A DNA stretch of 22,116 bases from a virus, in the IMG/VR virus record IMGVR_UViG_3300031841_000673, positions 1-22,116 of that record. One strand, written 5' to 3'. Both the position numbers and the translations under genes were made by a program. Below the pieces are notes generated by a model that saw only the letters and a list, made by a program, of their open reading frames with translations, was not told the DNA's origin and made no database searches. The stretch's first letter is position 1. The number at the start of each line of letters is the position of its first letter. Shown piece after piece: positions 331 through 19,159 of this stretch.

Positions 331-3300
331 TCACACCTCTAAAAGAGAAACGTTTTGTGCCAAGCCGCCGCTGTGACTCGTCCACTCCATGTCGTACATA
401 AAATTATAAGTGCCGCCAGCCGAGCTAACTGTTTGTGTTATTGAAAGCACTACTTCTGTGCCAGTAGCTGAGGCAATAGCAATGGTTGGATCACGAGTTG
501 TAATGTCACTGCTCAGTGCGTTTAACAAGCTTGTGCTTCCGTTCCAAAAAAGTCGGAAGGTTTTAGTTCCCGTACCAATGTCTACTCCGACATCATCTAA
601 AACATATTTTAAAGTCAAAAGACCATACATATTGCCGCTTTGACCTTTAATTTTTATAAAGTTTGTTGTTGTAGCACTAGCAATTGATGCCTTTTCAGCT
701 ACCAGCCTAACAGCAACGGCTCCCGCATTATCAGAGCAATAACGCTCTGCGCCGTTTGCATCAATGCTTAACCGTGGATTACCGTCACCATCTGACAAGA
801 CGATGTTGTTGTTTCCGGTGCGGATGTCGAGGCCGCCTTGGTTGCCGTTGTAGGCACCAAGAATGGTGTTCTTCGATCCAGTGGTAATTGCACTACCAGA
901 ATTTGCTCCAACAACAGTATTTATGTTTCCTGTCGTAGCCGCTCCAAGCGCTCCGTTTCCGATAGCAACGCAATCGTTTGCCGTCGTAAGCGCGTCACCC
1001 GTTTGATATCCCAAAAGGGTATTGGCGTAACCTGTAGTAATTGCCTGTCCAGCTTGCAAGCCTACGGCGACGTTGTAATAACCGGTGGTGTTTAGTCGAA
1101 GTGCTTGATAGCCAACGCCTGTGTTGTTTGAGCCTGTTGTAGTTTCAGTCAAAGACTCATAACCGACAGCCGTGTTCGCACCTGCCGTTGTATTTGCATC
1201 CAGTGCAAGAGCGCCTATTGCGACACTATTTGCACCTGTGGTGTTTGCAGTAAGCGACTGATAACCCACAGCGGTGTTGTTGTTGGCGGTGGTGTTTGAC
1301 TTTAGAGAAGCAACACCTACCGCTGTATTACTAGAGCCGGTTGTATTGAAACGTAATGCGCCGGCGTTTGTGCCATCAAAACCACCAATACCTACGTTAG
1401 ATGTGCCTGTAGTGTTAGCGGCTAGGACAAAAGAGCCTACAGCCGTCACAGTTCCGGTTGTATTGCCAAGTCCAGCCTGATACCCAACGGCTGTGTTGTT
1501 AGCCGCAGTGGTGTTTGCAGTAAGCGCCTCATAACCTACGGCAACGTTGCTGGATGCTGTAGTGTTTGAATCAAGAGCCGCCGCACCGACTGCTACATTA
1601 CTTCCACCGGTAGTGTTTGCCGCAAGAGCGTTGTTACCTACTGCAACGCTTGATGAGCCAGTAGTATTTGCATTCATTGCTGTTGTACCAACAGCCACGT
1701 TTGAGCTACCTGTTGAGTTATACAGCGCCTGTACACCAACACCTACGTTGTTTGATGCGGTAGTTGCAGTACCTACAGCGTTCACACCGATAGCTATGTT
1801 GTAGTTACCTGTAGTAATTGCATCACCTGCAAAAGCGCCTACTGCCGTGTTTTGTGTGCCTGTAGTATTTGCATTTAATGCAGTCTTACCAAACGCTGTG
1901 TTGTTGCTGGCCGTAGTGTTGGAACGTAAGGCTTGATGTCCCATTGCTGTGTTGCTACTACCTGTTGTATTTAAAGCAAGAGTTCCGACATCGACACCAT
2001 TAATACCAGATCCCACAGCTACGTTTGCAGTTCCAGTTGTATTAGATACTAAAGTACCATTACCGACAGCAGTATTATCAGAACCTGTGGTATTGCTACC
2101 TAAAGCATCTTTACCTATAGCTGTAACACCACTACCAGTAGTGTTTGCGTCTCCAGCTAGGGCACCAATAAAGGTATTGTTTGAGCCTGTGGTTGTATAT
2201 AAACCTGCGTAAAATCCCAAAGCAGTATTGTAGGCATTAGTGGCAGTAGTAAAGTTTTGAGTGTATAAAGCCGCCGTTCCAATAGCGGTGGATCTACTAC
2301 CTAATGTATCGGCGGTAAGAGCTAAGTTTCCTACTGCAACATTAAAATCGCCATCAGTGATAGCACGACCAGCCTGACTACCAACAAAAGTGTTTTCTTG
2401 ACCTGTCGTTAATGACCGACCAGCTTGATAACCAAGACCAGTATTTTCTGTGCCTGTAGTGTTTGCATACAGCGACTGATAACCAACTGCGGTGTTGTTG
2501 TTGGCGGTGGTGTTTGCATTAAGCGCCTGCCTACCTACCGCAGTGTTGCTTGCACCCGTCGTATTAGCTTTTAGGGTGTCGCTTCCAATCGCTACATTGT
2601 CATTCGCAGTGGTGTTGTTTTCTAGTGCGCCATAACCAAAAGCGTCGTTAGCCAAACCCGTAGTATTGTCTTGTAAAGCTAAATTACCTACTGCCGTGTT
2701 GTATGAGCCTGTAGTGTTGTAGGTTAACGCCAAACGACCTACACCAGTGTTAGCTGATCCAGTAGTGCTTCGGAATAACGTTTCGTGACCTACTGCGGTA
2801 TTTGAGAGACCTGACGTATTACCAGACAGCGCACGATAACCAACAGCAGTTAAGGCTCCTTGCGTAGTTATAGCGTCCAGCGCATAGTTGCCAACCGCTA
2901 CGTTTTCAGTCGCAGTTGTTGCGTTGTTCATTGCGACTGCGCCTACGGCAGTATTCAAGCCGCCAGTGCTAAGAGTTGCGCCAGTAGCATAGCCAATCAT
3001 TACGTTATTAGCGGCAGACGTTTGTGCTGTAGCCGCTTCATAGCCTATGGCAACGTTAAAGTTACCTGTCACAACAGCGTCAAGTGAGTAAGCGCCAAGA
3101 GCAGTGTTGTACTGGCCTGTTGTTAAGCCTCCGCCAGAGTTGTATCCAACGGCTGTGTTTAAAGCCGCTGTTGTAGATGCAGTAAGTGCACTTTGACCGA
3201 TAGCAACGTTTTGACCGCCAGTGGTGTTTGCGTATAGCGACAGATACCCAACAGCAGTGTTGTTGGAGGCGGTGGTGTTTGCTCCTAAAGCACTTCTACC

Positions 3301-4170
3301 AACGGCTGTGTTGTTACTACCCGAAGTATTTGCAAGCAAGGCACTATCACCTATTGCGGTGTTAAGTGCGCCAGTGGTGTTGGAATAAAAAGACTGATTA
3401 CCAAAAGCGGCGTTGTTATACCCCGTCTGGTTGCTATATCCGGCCTGATAGCCCACCGCCGTGTTGTTAGAGGCTGTGGTGTTTGAGTTAAGCGCCTGAC
3501 GGCCAATAGCTACGTTGTTTGAGCCTGTAGTGGTGCTGTATAACGCATTCAAACCCATTGCGGTGTTATTGCCACCTGTTGTATTGCTATAAGAAGCATT
3601 AACACCAACAGAGGTATTAGACGCGCCGGTAGTATTGGAATAAAGGGTTTGATGCCCTAAAGCTGTATTGTTATCTGCTGTGGTAGCGGCGGTTAAAGCA
3701 GTCGAGCCCAGTGCGACGTTTGCAGTGCCTGTAGTGTTTGCAAACAAAGCGCGATGTCCAACTGCCACGTTATTATTAGCCGTGGTATTATCAGTTAATG
3801 CTTGCATACCAACGGCGGTATTTTGAGTTCCAGAAGTATTTGCTTCGAGCGCGGCAAAGCCTAATGCGGTATTGGAAGATGCTGTGTTTGCCGTCAGCGC
3901 ATTAGCACCGATTGCTGTTGAATAATTACCTGATACAAGACTATCCAACGCAGTATTACCCAGCGCTACGTTGTCCGTACCAACAGGATAGTTACCATCC
4001 AGCTTGATTGTGCCGCCATCGACTGACAGGTTGCTTGAAATAGTAACCGCGCCAGTAAACGTAGCACCCGACAGTTCAGCCTTATCGGTGTTAAGGTTGG
4101 TGAAGTTAGCATCCACCTCGTTGTTAGTGAGAGGCGAACCCTTCCCAGAGCGTGTTGTAATCGTAGTCAT
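331..4170 (-). CDS. Giant tail fibre or adhesin with 61 YadA-head-like repeats
   Basis: This 1279-residue protein is probably a long side or tip fibre that contacts the host surface. Residues 1-66 form an N-terminal anchor beginning MTTITTRSGKGSPLTNNEVD, a start seen in many phage fibres. Residues 67-1121 are, by my count, 61 consecutive units of a 17-residue repeat with consensus NTAVGxxALxxNTTGxx. The conserved Asn, small and hydrophobic positions and invariant Gly resemble the left-handed beta-roll of trimeric autotransporter (YadA, Hia) heads. Four units carry insertions of 4 to 7 residues and three lack one residue. Residues 1122-1279 are a non-repeat C-terminal domain, a candidate receptor-binding or trimerisation head. 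The ATG follows a GAGG Shine-Dalgarno at 6 bases. A small chaperone gene follows directly. Structural role is sure from context; trimeric beta-roll fold is inference. Confidence 0.85.
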   Translation of the reverse strand: MTTITTRSGKGSPLTNNEVDANFTNLNTDKAELSGATFTGAVTISSNLSVDGGTIKLDGNYPVGTDNVALGNTALDSLVSGNYSTAIGANALTANTASSNTALGFAALEANTSGTQNTAVGMQALTDNTTANNNVAVGHRALFANTTGTANVALGSTALTAATTADNNTALGHQTLYSNTTGASNTSVGVNASYSNTTGGNNTAMGLNALYSTTTGSNNVAIGRQALNSNTTASNNTAVGYQAGYSNQTGYNNAAFGNQSFYSNTTGALNTAIGDSALLANTSGSNNTAVGRSALGANTTASNNTAVGYLSLYANTTGGQNVAIGQSALTASTTAALNTAVGYNSGGGLTTGQYNTALGAYSLDAVVTGNFNVAIGYEAATAQTSAANNVMIGYATGATLSTGGLNTAVGAVAMNNATTATENVAVGNYALDAITTQGALTAVGYRALSGNTSGLSNTAVGHETLFRSTTGSANTGVGRLALTYNTTGSYNTAVGNLALQDNTTGLANDAFGYGALENNTTANDNVAIGSDTLKANTTGASNTAVGRQALNANTTANNNTAVGYQSLYANTTGTENTGLGYQAGRSLTTGQENTFVGSQAGRAITDGDFNVAVGNLALTADTLGSRSTAIGTAALYTQNFTTATNAYNTALGFYAGLYTTTGSNNTFIGALAGDANTTGSGVTAIGKDALGSNTTGSDNTAVGNGTLVSNTTGTANVAVGSGINGVDVGTLALNTTGSSNTAMGHQALRSNTTASNNTAFGKTALNANTTGTQNTAVGAFAGDAITTGNYNIAIGVNAVGTATTASNNVGVGVQALYNSTGSSNVAVGTTAMNANTTGSSSVAVGNNALAANTTGGSNVAVGAAALDSNTTASSNVAVGYEALTANTTAANNTAVGYQAGLGNTTGTVTAVGSFVLAANTTGTSNVGIGGFDGTNAGALRFNTTGSSNTAVGVASLKSNTTANNNTAVGYQSLTANTTGANSVAIGALALDANTTAGANTAVGYESLTETTTGSNNTGVGYQALRLNTTGYYNVAVGLQAGQAITTGYANTLLGYQTGDALTTANDCVAIGNGALGAATTGNINTVVGANSGSAITTGSKNTILGAYNGNQGGLDIRTGNNNIVLSDGDGNPRLSIDANGAERYCSDNAGAVAVRLVAEKASIASATTTNFIKIKGQSGNMYGLLTLKYVLDDVGVDIGTGTKTFRLFWNGSTSLLNALSSDITTRDPTIAIASATGTEVVLSITQTVSSAGGTYNFMYDMEWTSHSGGLAQNVSLLEV
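808..3972 (-). repeat. 61 tandem 51-bp coding repeats (17 residues each)
   Basis: The coding repeat spans 3165 bases, equal to 1055 residues: 61 units of 17 residues, plus 21 inserted and minus 3 missing residues. Units are diverged at DNA level, but blocks recur. For example, a 46-base stretch at 1253-1298 matches 2471-2516 at 44 of 46 positions. Two units with the longest insertions (near 1340-1410 and 1955-2030) are each followed by similar unit series, which suggests block duplication of several units at a time. Confidence 0.9.
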
Positions 4171-14952: not shown

Positions 14953-16185
14953 TTAGCCGTCGTTACCGAATGCGAAGCTAACCGCGTGGCGTACTGCCAC
15001 ATCTACAGACTGAAGCGCTACAACGCGAACAGTGCCGCTAGTGCTGTTGGTGTATGGATCAACAACGATGTCGAGTCCACCGAACATACCAACAAGCAAA
15101 TCAGCAAAGTTACCGAAGTAGAGGTTTCCAGCTGTACACTGGTTAGAAACGATGCCACGGTAGCCGTTGATTGAACCGCCAGGCTCAACAACGAACTGAG
15201 CAGTGCCAGACGCTTTCTCAGTTGTCTTCAGAGCGCCGTACATAGAAGCTGGCAAGATATATGCCAAGTTTCCAGTAAGAGCGTTGTCTTCAGCAACCGC
15301 AGTTTCCAGAGTTACAACTTCAGCGAAGGTTGGGTTAGCAGCCGCGAAAGCAGTCACAGTGTTGACACCAGAGGTGTTCAAGATGCCTGTGGGCTGTCCG
15401 CTTGAGCCAGAACCTTCAAGACCAGCCAAGTCAATCGCAGTTGCGATAGCTTGAGCCAAGTCATCACGCATCATTGCCTCAACATCCATTGAAGATTGGA
15501 TGAGCAGCTGACGTGTTACGTCAGTGTGCGCGCCGAGTGTCTTAGGTGTCATTGAAACCTGTCCAACAACCATTTCTGATTCAGCCGATGCACCGCCTTC
15601 AGTAGCGATCCAACCCGCTGAAGCAGCAGTTGTTTTCTTAGGAATCTTAACGTCACCAGAAAGGCCACCGAGCATACGTGCGCCCGCTTGCATTACAGAT
15701 GAAGCGTTGCGGAGTACGTCGATGAACTCACCACCACGGAAGTCGTCAGTAAACAACTCTGCCTCATCCGCTGAGTTTAGATCGCGAGTCCAGTTACGCA
15801 GAACGTCAGCTGGGAGCATGATGCCCTGCGCTGATTTGCCATACTGATCAGCAGCGGCGCGTGAACATTCAAATTCAAACGCAGCGGCTTCCTGAGCGCG
15901 TCGATCAGTTGGGTTTGCCATAGCGTGTACAGCGCGAACAAGTGAAAAGCGTTGTGCTTCTTTCTTGTTCAAGCCGATTTCTTGGCTTTCCAATGAACGA
16001 TCAGAGCCAATCACTTCAAGCAACTCGCCACGAAACTCTTCGATAGACTTGCCTTCTGAGATTGCACGCTGTGCGAGATCAGATTTGCTGTGACGTGCGC
16101 CAAGCTCAACAATTTGAGCGGCGTTCTTTTGGGCGGCTTTACGAGCATCTGCTTCGACTGCCGCGATATCAATTGATTCTGACAT
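14953..16185 (-). CDS. Major capsid protein from an internal start
   Basis: An in-frame ATG at 16185 (Met504 of the fusion) has AAGGAGA 5 bases upstream, better than the site of the full-length frame. It would give a 410-residue HK97-fold capsid protein. The start MSESIDIAAVEADARKAAQK opens a charged helical region (to about 150) that looks like the scaffolding delta domain removed on maturation. The shell part includes AGWIATEGGASAESE, LGAHTDVTRQLLIQSSMDVE, LEGSGSSGQPTGILNTSG and a C-terminal VRVVALQSVDVAVRHAVSFA. Separate capsid translation would supply hundreds of copies while the fusion gives only a few protease copies. Whether both products exist is not shown by the sequence alone. Confidence 0.75.
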   Translation of the reverse strand: MSESIDIAAVEADARKAAQKNAAQIVELGARHSKSDLAQRAISEGKSIEEFRGELLEVIGSDRSLESQEIGLNKKEAQRFSLVRAVHAMANPTDRRAQEAAAFEFECSRAAADQYGKSAQGIMLPADVLRNWTRDLNSADEAELFTDDFRGGEFIDVLRNASSVMQAGARMLGGLSGDVKIPKKTTAASAGWIATEGGASAESEMVVGQVSMTPKTLGAHTDVTRQLLIQSSMDVEAMMRDDLAQAIATAIDLAGLEGSGSSGQPTGILNTSGVNTVTAFAAANPTFAEVVTLETAVAEDNALTGNLAYILPASMYGALKTTEKASGTAQFVVEPGGSINGYRGIVSNQCTAGNLYFGNFADLLVGMFGGLDIVVDPYTNSTSGTVRVVALQSVDVAVRHAVSFAFGNDG

Positions 16186-17694
16186 GGGTATCTCCTTAAA
16201 GTCAGTTTTAATCACGGGTTGAGATGAAGCAGAGCCTGATCGCCCAACCCCTACGGAGGCATCCGCAGGAATTGAAACCAAACTTGCCTCGACTGGACGC
16301 CAAGACTTAGCCACATAAGTGTCCTTGTCTTTTCTTTCCAGTTTGTTGATGGCGTAACCAATGGACACGTTAGCCTTGATCCCATCAACTACATCGTCGA
16401 AAGCCTCTCTAGCAAGTGCGCCTTTGCCAAAACGCACCGTCGCACGGAGCCGCCGTGCCGAGCCGTCGAGATCGACAGATTCCACAACGCCAATTTGTCT
16501 TTCTGGATCGTGATCCAAAAGAAGCGGGGCGCGTCCGCTGTTCAAGAAACTCAGATCAATTGCTTCTTCTGAGTGTTCTAATACTTCCATTCCGAATGAG
16601 CGCTGTACTGGCTCTTCAGAACTCACAGCCATCTTTACGCGGCGCGACTCCTCATCAACCGCCTTTGCTGAAAGTTCCATTGCACGATGAGTAATCTCAA
16701 CACTGCCTTTGCGTTCTTCCGCTTCCTCTTCTTCAGCATCATCTTCAGACTTGCCGAACTCGATAATCACTGAATCAGCAGTTTCAGTTACATTCTTGAT
16801 ATGACGCTCTTCTTCATCATATCCACGGATAGGATCAATCTTAGTCAGCGTCGAAAAGCGGTGGCCTACTCGCACATCACTCTCGTTACCTTCGCTGTCA
16901 TAGACGCGAATCAACGCCGCAGGATCTTCCTCAGTACCGTTCACAGTAAAGTCTGAATCAGGCACATTGATTGATCCATCACGCTCAATGCGCTCGATCT
17001 TTCCTCTCGCTCTGCCACCGGATGAATTCCAGCTTACAAAGTCGCCAACTGATAACTCATCTGGCTCTGCGCGTTTTTCTGTTTCCATTGCACGTTCCTC
17101 AATGGCCGGTTCAAATTCCAAAACTTCCCAGTTATTTTCACGCAACCATTCGCGCGCTTCATCCTCTGAGAACTGTGACGAATCAAAGCGTATCGACTGA
17201 ATCTCTGTTTCGCCGTCTTTATAACCAACGATTATATCAATTCCCTCACCAAGTTCATCATTTATGCGTCTGAACTGTTCGTATTGGCCAGGCTCTCTGA
17301 TTCTCGCCGCGTGTTCATTGGGGTATGGACGCTTATCCTCGTAAGCGCGCTCATCTAGTGAATTGAGTCTTTGCGTGATTCTGTTTGCCCAAGACTCTCC
17401 AGCATCTCCTCCCCAAAGCTCCCAAGCAATTCGTCCTGCGCTGGGGAATCCTTCCTCTCCACTACTGAATCCTTCTGCCTGTTTATCGACAGTGTGTCGC
17501 GCAAAATAGCTATACATACGCCGAACAGTATTGATACTGAGATCGCGACGGTTAATGAGATCACGAGCGCGAGCGACGCCAACCTCAGTACCGCCACGCC
17601 CAAATTCCTCACGCCACTCCAAACCGCGTTTAGCATTGTTTGCCATCGCCTCCGTTGGTTTTGTATTTATTTCCTCGCCCTTATACGTCGCCAT
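14953..17694 (-). CDS. Prohead protease - major capsid protein fusion with extra N-terminal domains
   Basis: This 913-residue polyprotein has several parts. Residues 10-115 form a helical domain (NNAKRGLEWREEFGRGGTEV, later SAGRIAWELWGGDAGESW) known at the front of some phage head proteins. Residues 165-195 carry IRFDSSQFSEDEAREWLREN, as in XkdF-type proteins. Residues 214-287 (VGDFVSWNSSGGRARGKIER) match the Tudor-like DUF2945 pattern. Residues 335-485 are an HK97-type prohead protease with likely catalytic His395 (LLLDHDPE) and Ser444 (NVSIGYAI). Residues 504-913 are an HK97-fold capsid protein. A GAGG site precedes the ATG, which overlaps the portal gene end by 14 bases. Inference: the protease cuts the fusion during maturation. 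A possible further start at Met203 (17088), behind a GAGG, is weaker evidence. Confidence 0.9.
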   Translation of the reverse strand: MATYKGEEINTKPTEAMANNAKRGLEWREEFGRGGTEVGVARARDLINRRDLSINTVRRMYSYFARHTVDKQAEGFSSGEEGFPSAGRIAWELWGGDAGESWANRITQRLNSLDERAYEDKRPYPNEHAARIREPGQYEQFRRINDELGEGIDIIVGYKDGETEIQSIRFDSSQFSEDEAREWLRENNWEVLEFEPAIEERAMETEKRAEPDELSVGDFVSWNSSGGRARGKIERIERDGSINVPDSDFTVNGTEEDPAALIRVYDSEGNESDVRVGHRFSTLTKIDPIRGYDEEERHIKNVTETADSVIIEFGKSEDDAEEEEAEERKGSVEITHRAMELSAKAVDEESRRVKMAVSSEEPVQRSFGMEVLEHSEEAIDLSFLNSGRAPLLLDHDPERQIGVVESVDLDGSARRLRATVRFGKGALAREAFDDVVDGIKANVSIGYAINKLERKDKDTYVAKSWRPVEASLVSIPADASVGVGRSGSASSQPVIKTDFKEIPMSESIDIAAVEADARKAAQKNAAQIVELGARHSKSDLAQRAISEGKSIEEFRGELLEVIGSDRSLESQEIGLNKKEAQRFSLVRAVHAMANPTDRRAQEAAAFEFECSRAAADQYGKSAQGIMLPADVLRNWTRDLNSADEAELFTDDFRGGEFIDVLRNASSVMQAGARMLGGLSGDVKIPKKTTAASAGWIATEGGASAESEMVVGQVSMTPKTLGAHTDVTRQLLIQSSMDVEAMMRDDLAQAIATAIDLAGLEGSGSSGQPTGILNTSGVNTVTAFAAANPTFAEVVTLETAVAEDNALTGNLAYILPASMYGALKTTEKASGTAQFVVEPGGSINGYRGIVSNQCTAGNLYFGNFADLLVGMFGGLDIVVDPYTNSTSGTVRVVALQSVDVAVRHAVSFAFGNDG
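16191..16197 (-). promoter_or_regulatory. Internal ribosome binding site for the capsid protein
   Basis: The coding strand reads AAGGAGA, then TACCC, then ATG at 16185. This strong site lies within the protease-capsid fusion gene, at the protein boundary between the protease and the capsid delta domain. Confidence 0.8.
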
Positions 17695-19159
17695 CAGTCA
17701 CCTCGGGAACCACCGGCATCATCATCGCCGCGTAAGGCTCAAGCGCATATTTAACGCCAAACTGCTCCATCAAGCTCTTATCGCGCTGTATCTCAGCAAG
17801 TAGCTCTTCAGTGTCTTTCCCGTACTGGCTCGCCACGTCTTGCAGACTGAGAACGCCAGCCTTCATTCCGTTGATAGCCGCATTCATTTCTTTCTGTGGA
17901 TCAACCCAATTCCACGCACGGCCTCGGAACTCAGCAGCGCCTTTAAACTTATCAAGGGTGGACAGCGGCAAACGCACGCCCTGCACCTCAAGTGCCGACT
18001 CAAGCCACGCCTCAAACACGGGGCGTACAAAGTGATCAATCATGAATTGCTGAAGGTTGCGATAATAATCACGTTCCTCAAGCGCACCCTGGCGAATAGA
18101 GCTATAAGACGTAGCCTCAAGATCGTTAGCCAGTGACGTATATGAAACATTAAGCGCCGACGCGATGCCCTTTAGCACCGACTTGTGGAAGCTGTCGAAT
18201 TCGCTGTTGGGGTATTGCGGATCAAACGTCTTGAAATCGACGCCGTTTGGCAGTTGGTGGAAAGTGCCAGGCTGTGCATCAATGATTGGCACGTTGCCAT
18301 CAAGCTCATCCGCGACAAAGCCGTCACCTGATGGACTCGTAAAGAATCCCATCTTTGATGCGCCCATACGCGCAGCGACAATTGATGCCTCACGCCAGCC
18401 GTTTAGCTGTTTGAGCGATGCCATTGCTGGGGCCATCCACGGCTCACCGCGAGTTTGTCCGGGGCGCAAAGGCTGAAATATATGAATAACGCGATCAGCA
18501 GGGATGCGACGATGCTTAGGAGAGCGTGTCTGCGTCGTAAAATCGTAATCACCGGGGTGATATGTGAGCAAATGATACGCGATAGGCTTGCGGAACTTAT
18601 CCAGTTCGACACCCATACGAATCTCATTGCCATTCGACAATCTCTCAGACTTTTCTTCATCTACCTGATCAGGCTCTATAAATTCCAACGCAAACGAGTC
18701 ATGAAAGTCGTTTCCGCGATGCTTGATGATGAAAACCTCACCATCACGCGCCAGACTCTCAATAACCATCTTCTGCACGTCAATCCAAGACATCTTCCCG
18801 TCCGCCGTGCAGTTCCCCTTGCGCCCCCAAGCCTTAAAACCCTGTTCAACAGCACTGTTCCCTGGCTGATCTAAAGCACCAGCGGGATCGAGTGCTTTGA
18901 CTTGTAGCTTTACACCGTACTGCCCAACGGTATTTGTCTTGAGAAGCGACAAATAACGCTTGGCGTACTCGTTGTTACGCGCCAGATCCCGTGATCTTGC
19001 ACGCATACGCGATATGACTGGATAAAGCTCGCTATCAGCAGAGCGCTCTGACTCTCGATAATCAGCAAACAAACGGCCTGTATTAGCCGCTGAATACGCT
19101 CTTTTGAAAGTCTTGTTCTTTGTATCAGGTTTAGATTTCAAAAAATCGAACAGAGCCAT
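17681..19159 (-). CDS. B: Portal protein, lambda gpB family
   Basis: This 492-residue protein forms the DNA entry ring of the head. The start MALFDFLKSKPDTKNKTFKR leads into SELYPVISRMRARSRDLARN and KRYLSLLKTNTVGQYGVKLQ, the conserved front of lambda-type portals. Further marks are ESLARDGEVFIIKH, ALEFIEPDQVDEE, the IHIFQPLRPGQTRGEPWMAP segment and LSTLDKFKGAAEF. It is near the length of lambda gpB (533). The ATG directly follows the TAA of the gpW-position gene and has GAGG 6 bases upstream. The 3 prime end overlaps the protease-capsid start by 14 bases. Confidence 0.92.
   Translation of the reverse strand: MALFDFLKSKPDTKNKTFKRAYSAANTGRLFADYRESERSADSELYPVISRMRARSRDLARNNEYAKRYLSLLKTNTVGQYGVKLQVKALDPAGALDQPGNSAVEQGFKAWGRKGNCTADGKMSWIDVQKMVIESLARDGEVFIIKHRGNDFHDSFALEFIEPDQVDEEKSERLSNGNEIRMGVELDKFRKPIAYHLLTYHPGDYDFTTQTRSPKHRRIPADRVIHIFQPLRPGQTRGEPWMAPAMASLKQLNGWREASIVAARMGASKMGFFTSPSGDGFVADELDGNVPIIDAQPGTFHQLPNGVDFKTFDPQYPNSEFDSFHKSVLKGIASALNVSYTSLANDLEATSYSSIRQGALEERDYYRNLQQFMIDHFVRPVFEAWLESALEVQGVRLPLSTLDKFKGAAEFRGRAWNWVDPQKEMNAAINGMKAGVLSLQDVASQYGKDTEELLAEIQRDKSLMEQFGVKYALEPYAAMMMPVVPEVTDGDV

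Follow-up and report, generated by a model that had tools for sequence, protein, structure and literature searches.

The fused protease-capsid gene on the minus strand of the window (the whole stretch of DNA analysed, a virus record of 22,116 bases) very probably gives rise to two in-frame products that would assemble together, one joining protease, delta and capsid and the other a delta-capsid precursor. Internal initiation at Met504, yielding a 410-amino acid protein made up of the delta region and the capsid protein, is very likely on the evidence of sequence comparison. The internal start had been proposed in an original prediction made from the window itself, and this interpretation is now supported by conservation of both the start codon and its Shine–Dalgarno (SD) sequence, and by recurrence of the arrangement in a non-homologous family of protease-capsid fusions.

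The minus-strand gene order was terminase large subunit, head-tail joining protein, lambda-type portal, fused gene, and then connector and tail genes. The fused gene (17694..14953, 913 amino acids) was delineated from its open reading frame and profile matches as an N-terminal domain, a TUDOR domain, an S78-type prohead protease, a linker, a delta region and an HK97-fold major capsid protein. Its ATG (17692..17694) lies within a 14-nucleotide overlap with the gene for the portal protein of the lambda family (17681..19159, minus strand). The N-terminal domain matched phrog_2859 and is followed by an Hva1_TUDOR domain at residues 217–263 (16906..17046; E 5e-7), while the protease domain, at about residues 346–485 (16240..16659), was identified by a match to the Peptidase_S78 and proheadase_HK97 profiles. 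His395 and Ser444 were invariant among 30 aligned relatives and are candidate catalytic residues, the role being assigned by homology only. The best profile match of the whole gene was phrog_617 (E 1e-149), and a protease and an HK97-fold capsid protein were found in a single open frame, as in fusions of the phrog_617 type; the score against NF045541 was 143.8 bits, below the curated cut-off of 525. The gene did not match NCBIfam NF045540, which describes the ClpP-type fusions, and a ClpP-like protease of the Gifsy-2 kind was not found in it. Short relatives, VP882 and RcCronus among them, are without the extra N-terminal modules, that is, the phrog_2859 domain and Hva1_TUDOR. Elsewhere on the same strand of the window, an open reading frame of 1279 amino acids (331–4170) consists mostly of short repeats (NTAVGYQAL.../ANTTG...) and resembles a repetitive fibre- or adhesin-like protein.

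The internal start, read 5' to 3' on the minus strand, has the sequence GACTTTAAGGAGATACCCATGTCAGAA. The original prediction of an AAGGAGA motif five bases before an in-frame ATG was confirmed: AAGGAGA (16197..16191) is separated by the 5-nucleotide spacer TACCC (16190..16186) from an ATG (16185..16183) that is in frame with the open reading frame 17694..14953 and encodes Met504 of 913. No other internal ATG of the gene had so strong an SD. The anti-SD duplex at Met504 had an energy of −9.2 kcal/mol, a value reached at just 1.9% of codon positions in the gene, while the remaining internal in-frame ATGs gave +1.9 to −6.4. The SD of the full-length start (GAGGTGA, 17698..17704) gave −11.0 kcal/mol, and at the remaining genes in the window the values ran from −3 to −12 kcal/mol. 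The RNA at the window's own Met504 site was not unusually open (−13.1 kcal/mol, z −1.0).

The site had also been predicted to lie exactly at the protease/capsid boundary, and this placement at the junction held but could be refined to the linker that joins the protease to the delta part of the capsid precursor. AlphaFold2 was run on 30 sequences and returned a mean pLDDT of 68.5, hence the domain limits alone were used. Met504 fell inside a stretch with pLDDT below 50, the predicted disordered linker (residues 475–508; 16171..16272), directly upstream of helix 510–534, which opens a delta-like (scaffold-like) helical region. With its boundary set by alignment to 8gta chain A, this region spans about residues 504–643 (15766..16185) and is presumed to be taken off at maturation. 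The core of the mature capsid protein, placed at about residues 644–911 (14962..15765) by a profile match and the 8gta alignment, includes a Phage_capsid domain match at residues 656–911, and would therefore begin about 140 residues past Met504. The best relative among solved structures, the Dinoroseobacter phage R4C capsid protein (8gta), comes from a gene product of 629 amino acids of which the deposited chain covers residues 362–629, so the protease and delta parts are missing from the modelled R4C shell protein. The R4C shell is T=7 with 415 copies of the capsid protein (PMC10276861), and the words 'protease' and 'cleav' are absent from the text of that paper.

The relationship between the fusion and the internal start was studied in a close-relative set of 80 viral loci, comprising 69 non-identical sequences, for which one of the six search patterns (TDFKEIPM) overlaps the internal site and introduces a slight bias. 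All 80 loci were fused and all 80 had the junction ATG; Met504 was present in each of the 69 non-identical sequences and an SD core in 65 of them. The mean SD energy at Met504 was −7.73, compared with −7.66 for the gene's own start (from the 20 relatives whose sequence extended far enough upstream), while other conserved Met columns had means of +1.2 to −5.7, Met203 being second best. The set was then widened by 80 bacterial-genome loci and 160 more viral loci, using search patterns that do not overlap the site. Every locus with both protease and capsid parts was fused (341/341), and a search for split relatives among these 341 loci returned none. An ATG with an SD-like sequence was kept in phages CRP-811, CRP-821, CRP-406, ECOO78, PT1, Persinger, Alexa, Mano, PPpW-3, RcCronus, R4C and VP882 and likewise in plasmid-borne relatives, the residues flanking the ATG being unrelated among them. 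In Mica, FoX5 and a Klebsiella plasmid the ATG was kept and the SD was weaker or farther away.

Aligned all together, the 327 sequences gave too loose an alignment for the Met to be located in each clade, and alignments were made clade by clade instead. When the sequences were grouped into 108 clusters at 70% identity, Met occupied one junction alignment column in 86 rows and an ATG lay within six residues of that column in 91 clusters. An SD core ending 4–10 nucleotides upstream of the junction ATG was found in 74 of these 91, as against 5–17 in windows shifted by 30–90 nucleotides, and 13 of the 17 remaining clusters had a different SD-ATG within the linker. At 50% identity the junction SD was present in 23 of 28 clusters (2–6 in shifted windows). 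The original prediction had held that it would fail if the site were not conserved while the fusion was; the start codon proved to be kept across a deeply diverged family that is always fused.

It could be that only the full-length protein is made, that the protease cleaves itself off at the linker, and that the SD-like sequence arises incidentally from acidic and basic linker residues encoded by Lys-Glu and Glu-Glu codons. The linker is indeed rich in Lys and Glu, its codons contain AAGGAG-like sequence, synonymous shuffles keep much of the SD signal, and a mature R4C capsid protein that lacks the N-terminal part is expected from either product. The family mean was −6.2 observed and −4.8 shuffled, the observed value lying below all 100 shuffles. 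The excess in single genes was only moderate (p<0.05 in 16 of 106 genes), as the residues used at the site themselves call for purine-rich codons. Synonymous shuffling was consequently dropped as the main test on account of its weak discrimination, and shifted windows, a codon-frame count and a structure profile were used instead. The SD core began in codon frames 0, 1 and 2 in 21, 14 and 26 clusters, respectively, and was encoded by 51 distinct tripeptides, always at the spacing of a start; the SD is thus kept at the nucleotide level while the encoded residues vary, as judged by these comparisons. Across the family, the mean folding energy of 40-nucleotide windows reached its minimum in structure at the ATG (−3.7 kcal/mol), against −9 to −11 about 60–100 nucleotides away. 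GAG outnumbered GAA at the site (30:8, versus 1264:1622 elsewhere, counts that are uncorrected for shared ancestry), and the bias among Lys codons at the SD was not significant. The junction Met was moreover the most conserved position of an otherwise variable linker, and in one clade GTG was its sole substitute. Taken together, these observations make a by-product of linker composition very unlikely.

The clade in question comprises relatives of cyanophage S-LBS1 (loci L264–L343), in which the SD has been lost and the upstream side of the junction is C-rich and unstructured. A start codon was nevertheless present at the junction in 80 of 80 loci, as ATG in 62 and as GTG, the only replacement, in 18. 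This retention supports a role as a start but is short of decisive, since GTG makes up 46% of the valine codons in these genes and the 18 cases are non-independent. An explanation of the SD loss by cyanophage hosts that do not use SD sequences was discarded, as 89 of 168 neighbouring genes carried an SD compared with 210 of 383 elsewhere (a rough count).

Genes of the Gifsy-2 type (NF045540; loci L349–L436) encode a ClpP-like protease fused to a different capsid protein. Like the gene in the window, they are in-frame protease-capsid fusions with an internal SD-ATG at the junction; their capsid protein belongs to another subfamily and their protease is unrelated to the S78-type enzyme found here. 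Among 42 clusters of ClpP-type fusions, the junction column held Met in 40 and an ATG was present in 41, of which 39 had an SD at the right spacing (0–5 in shifted windows). The dip in structure at the junction ATG was present in these genes too, and in Escherichia phages LLS and PhiR40_1 the sequence GAGGAA precedes an in-frame ATG in the corresponding region. That two unrelated proteases come with the same design argues more strongly than any other evidence for an internal start that serves the fusion, and a multi-start design is apparently general for protease-capsid fusions, to judge from these two families. It also bears on whether the internal SD-ATG is a relic, now without a role, of a once-separate capsid gene that became fused in frame. 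The internal product has the layout of HK97 gp5, delta followed by capsid, as expected from two joined genes. However, with no split relative among the 341 loci the fusion must be old, the site persists at 40–60% protein identity and recurs in the second fusion family, and the hypervariable linker would have let a relic decay, so that a functionless remnant is hardly probable at all.

On the favoured interpretation of these data, ribosomes starting at 17694 would produce the 913-amino acid protease-delta-capsid fusion, while those that initiate internally, at the SD-ATG at 16185, would produce the 410-amino acid delta-capsid precursor, the equivalent of HK97 gp5. As both products share the delta and capsid parts they could co-assemble, the fusion subunits carrying the protease covalently into the procapsid, where it would then cut the delta part, and its own domain, off every subunit. 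Synthesis of both products and this route of co-assembly are inferred from the sequence. The short capsid product could alternatively be made from a separate internal transcript, as with herpesvirus UL26.5, which would solve the same dosage problem. In this case the internal SD-ATG would still be needed, and a sigma-70-like promoter was not found in 16150–16700 (a weak test); a dedicated transcript is highly improbable.

For two starts on one message, the short product is presumably in excess, a conclusion that comes from an assembly and volume argument; SD strength in the window leans towards the full-length start and does not predict the ratio. In a shell of 415 subunits the 503 extra residues of each would occupy about 27,800 nm3 and the delta parts about 8,000 nm3, against an interior of 24,400–33,500 nm3 at an assumed inner radius of 18–20 nm, which we take to be that of HK97-like proheads. 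Procapsids made entirely of full-length subunits thus look overfilled, and the short form would have to dominate. The fusion start may itself be limited by the overlapping portal gene. It is rather unlikely, though less so than the alternatives above, that internal initiation is real but yields the two products in similar amounts, with the fusion as a major shell component: the two starts have comparable SD energies in the window and in relatives, but the volume estimate speaks against shells rich in 913-residue subunits, as does the fact that HK97-like heads need few proteases.

The original prediction had likened the arrangement to lambda C/Nu3, in which an in-frame internal start in the head-protease gene gives a shorter, protease-free product that shares the C-terminal part. 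The likeness holds for a conserved in-frame start with its own SD at a domain boundary and for the shared C-terminal part. It fails for the nested product, which in lambda is the scaffold, the capsid protein being encoded by a separate gene; here it would include the Phage_capsid domain and be a capsid precursor carrying a delta of its own. The protease also differs, being S78-like. In herpesvirus UL26/UL26.5, protease-bearing and protease-free nested forms likewise assemble together, but each form has its own transcript, and the nested one is again a scaffold. The nested-start logic here therefore differs in having the capsid precursor itself as the nested product. HK97 gp4 and gp5 also pair a protease with a delta-capsid precursor, as separate genes, the 410-amino acid product having the gp5 layout. 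The prohead protease-capsid fusions of phrog_617 and NF045541 have the same domain order as the gene studied here, which has the N-terminal and TUDOR domains in addition, and an internal start is not mentioned in the descriptions shown for the two families. A literature search, whose scope did not take in the Gifsy-2 paper of Effantin (2010), returned no description of an internal start in protease-capsid fusions. Relatives of the fused gene are common: 246 phage records matched its protein and, where annotated, show it as a single product. Should each relative encode a capsid precursor in its own right as well, many annotations of phages would be incomplete; a nested start would explain how a fused protease can occur in few copies, and would make covalent loading of the protease into the procapsid directly testable.

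Met203 (17086..17088) may be a weaker second nested start. It is preceded, with a spacer of 7 nucleotides, by GAGGA (17096–17100), and lies within a segment of pLDDT below 50 (197–207) between the N-terminal and TUDOR domains. The SD was present in 30 of the 35 close relatives that have an ATG there, compared with 1–12 in shifted windows, although part of this signal may reflect a Glu-Glu protein motif. If used, Met203 would give a 711-amino acid form without the N-terminal domain. It is possible, but tentative, that protease-capsid fusions in general are multi-start genes that arose on two or more occasions with unrelated proteases, and that the marine-lineage gene has three starts (Met1, Met203 and Met504), in which case the full-length protein, a shorter one missing the N-terminal domain, and the bare delta-capsid precursor would all come from one frame. 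Met626 was rejected as a start: all close relatives had an SD-like core there, but it coincides with a conserved protein motif and structured RNA.

Finally, in Roseobacter phage CRP-823 (locus L084, about 2173–2176) a short T run contains an extra T relative to CRP-821, which breaks the frame of the N-terminal domain and accounts for the annotation of two 'major capsid' genes in this phage. The extra T is either a sequencing error or the mark of a phage that depends on a later start.
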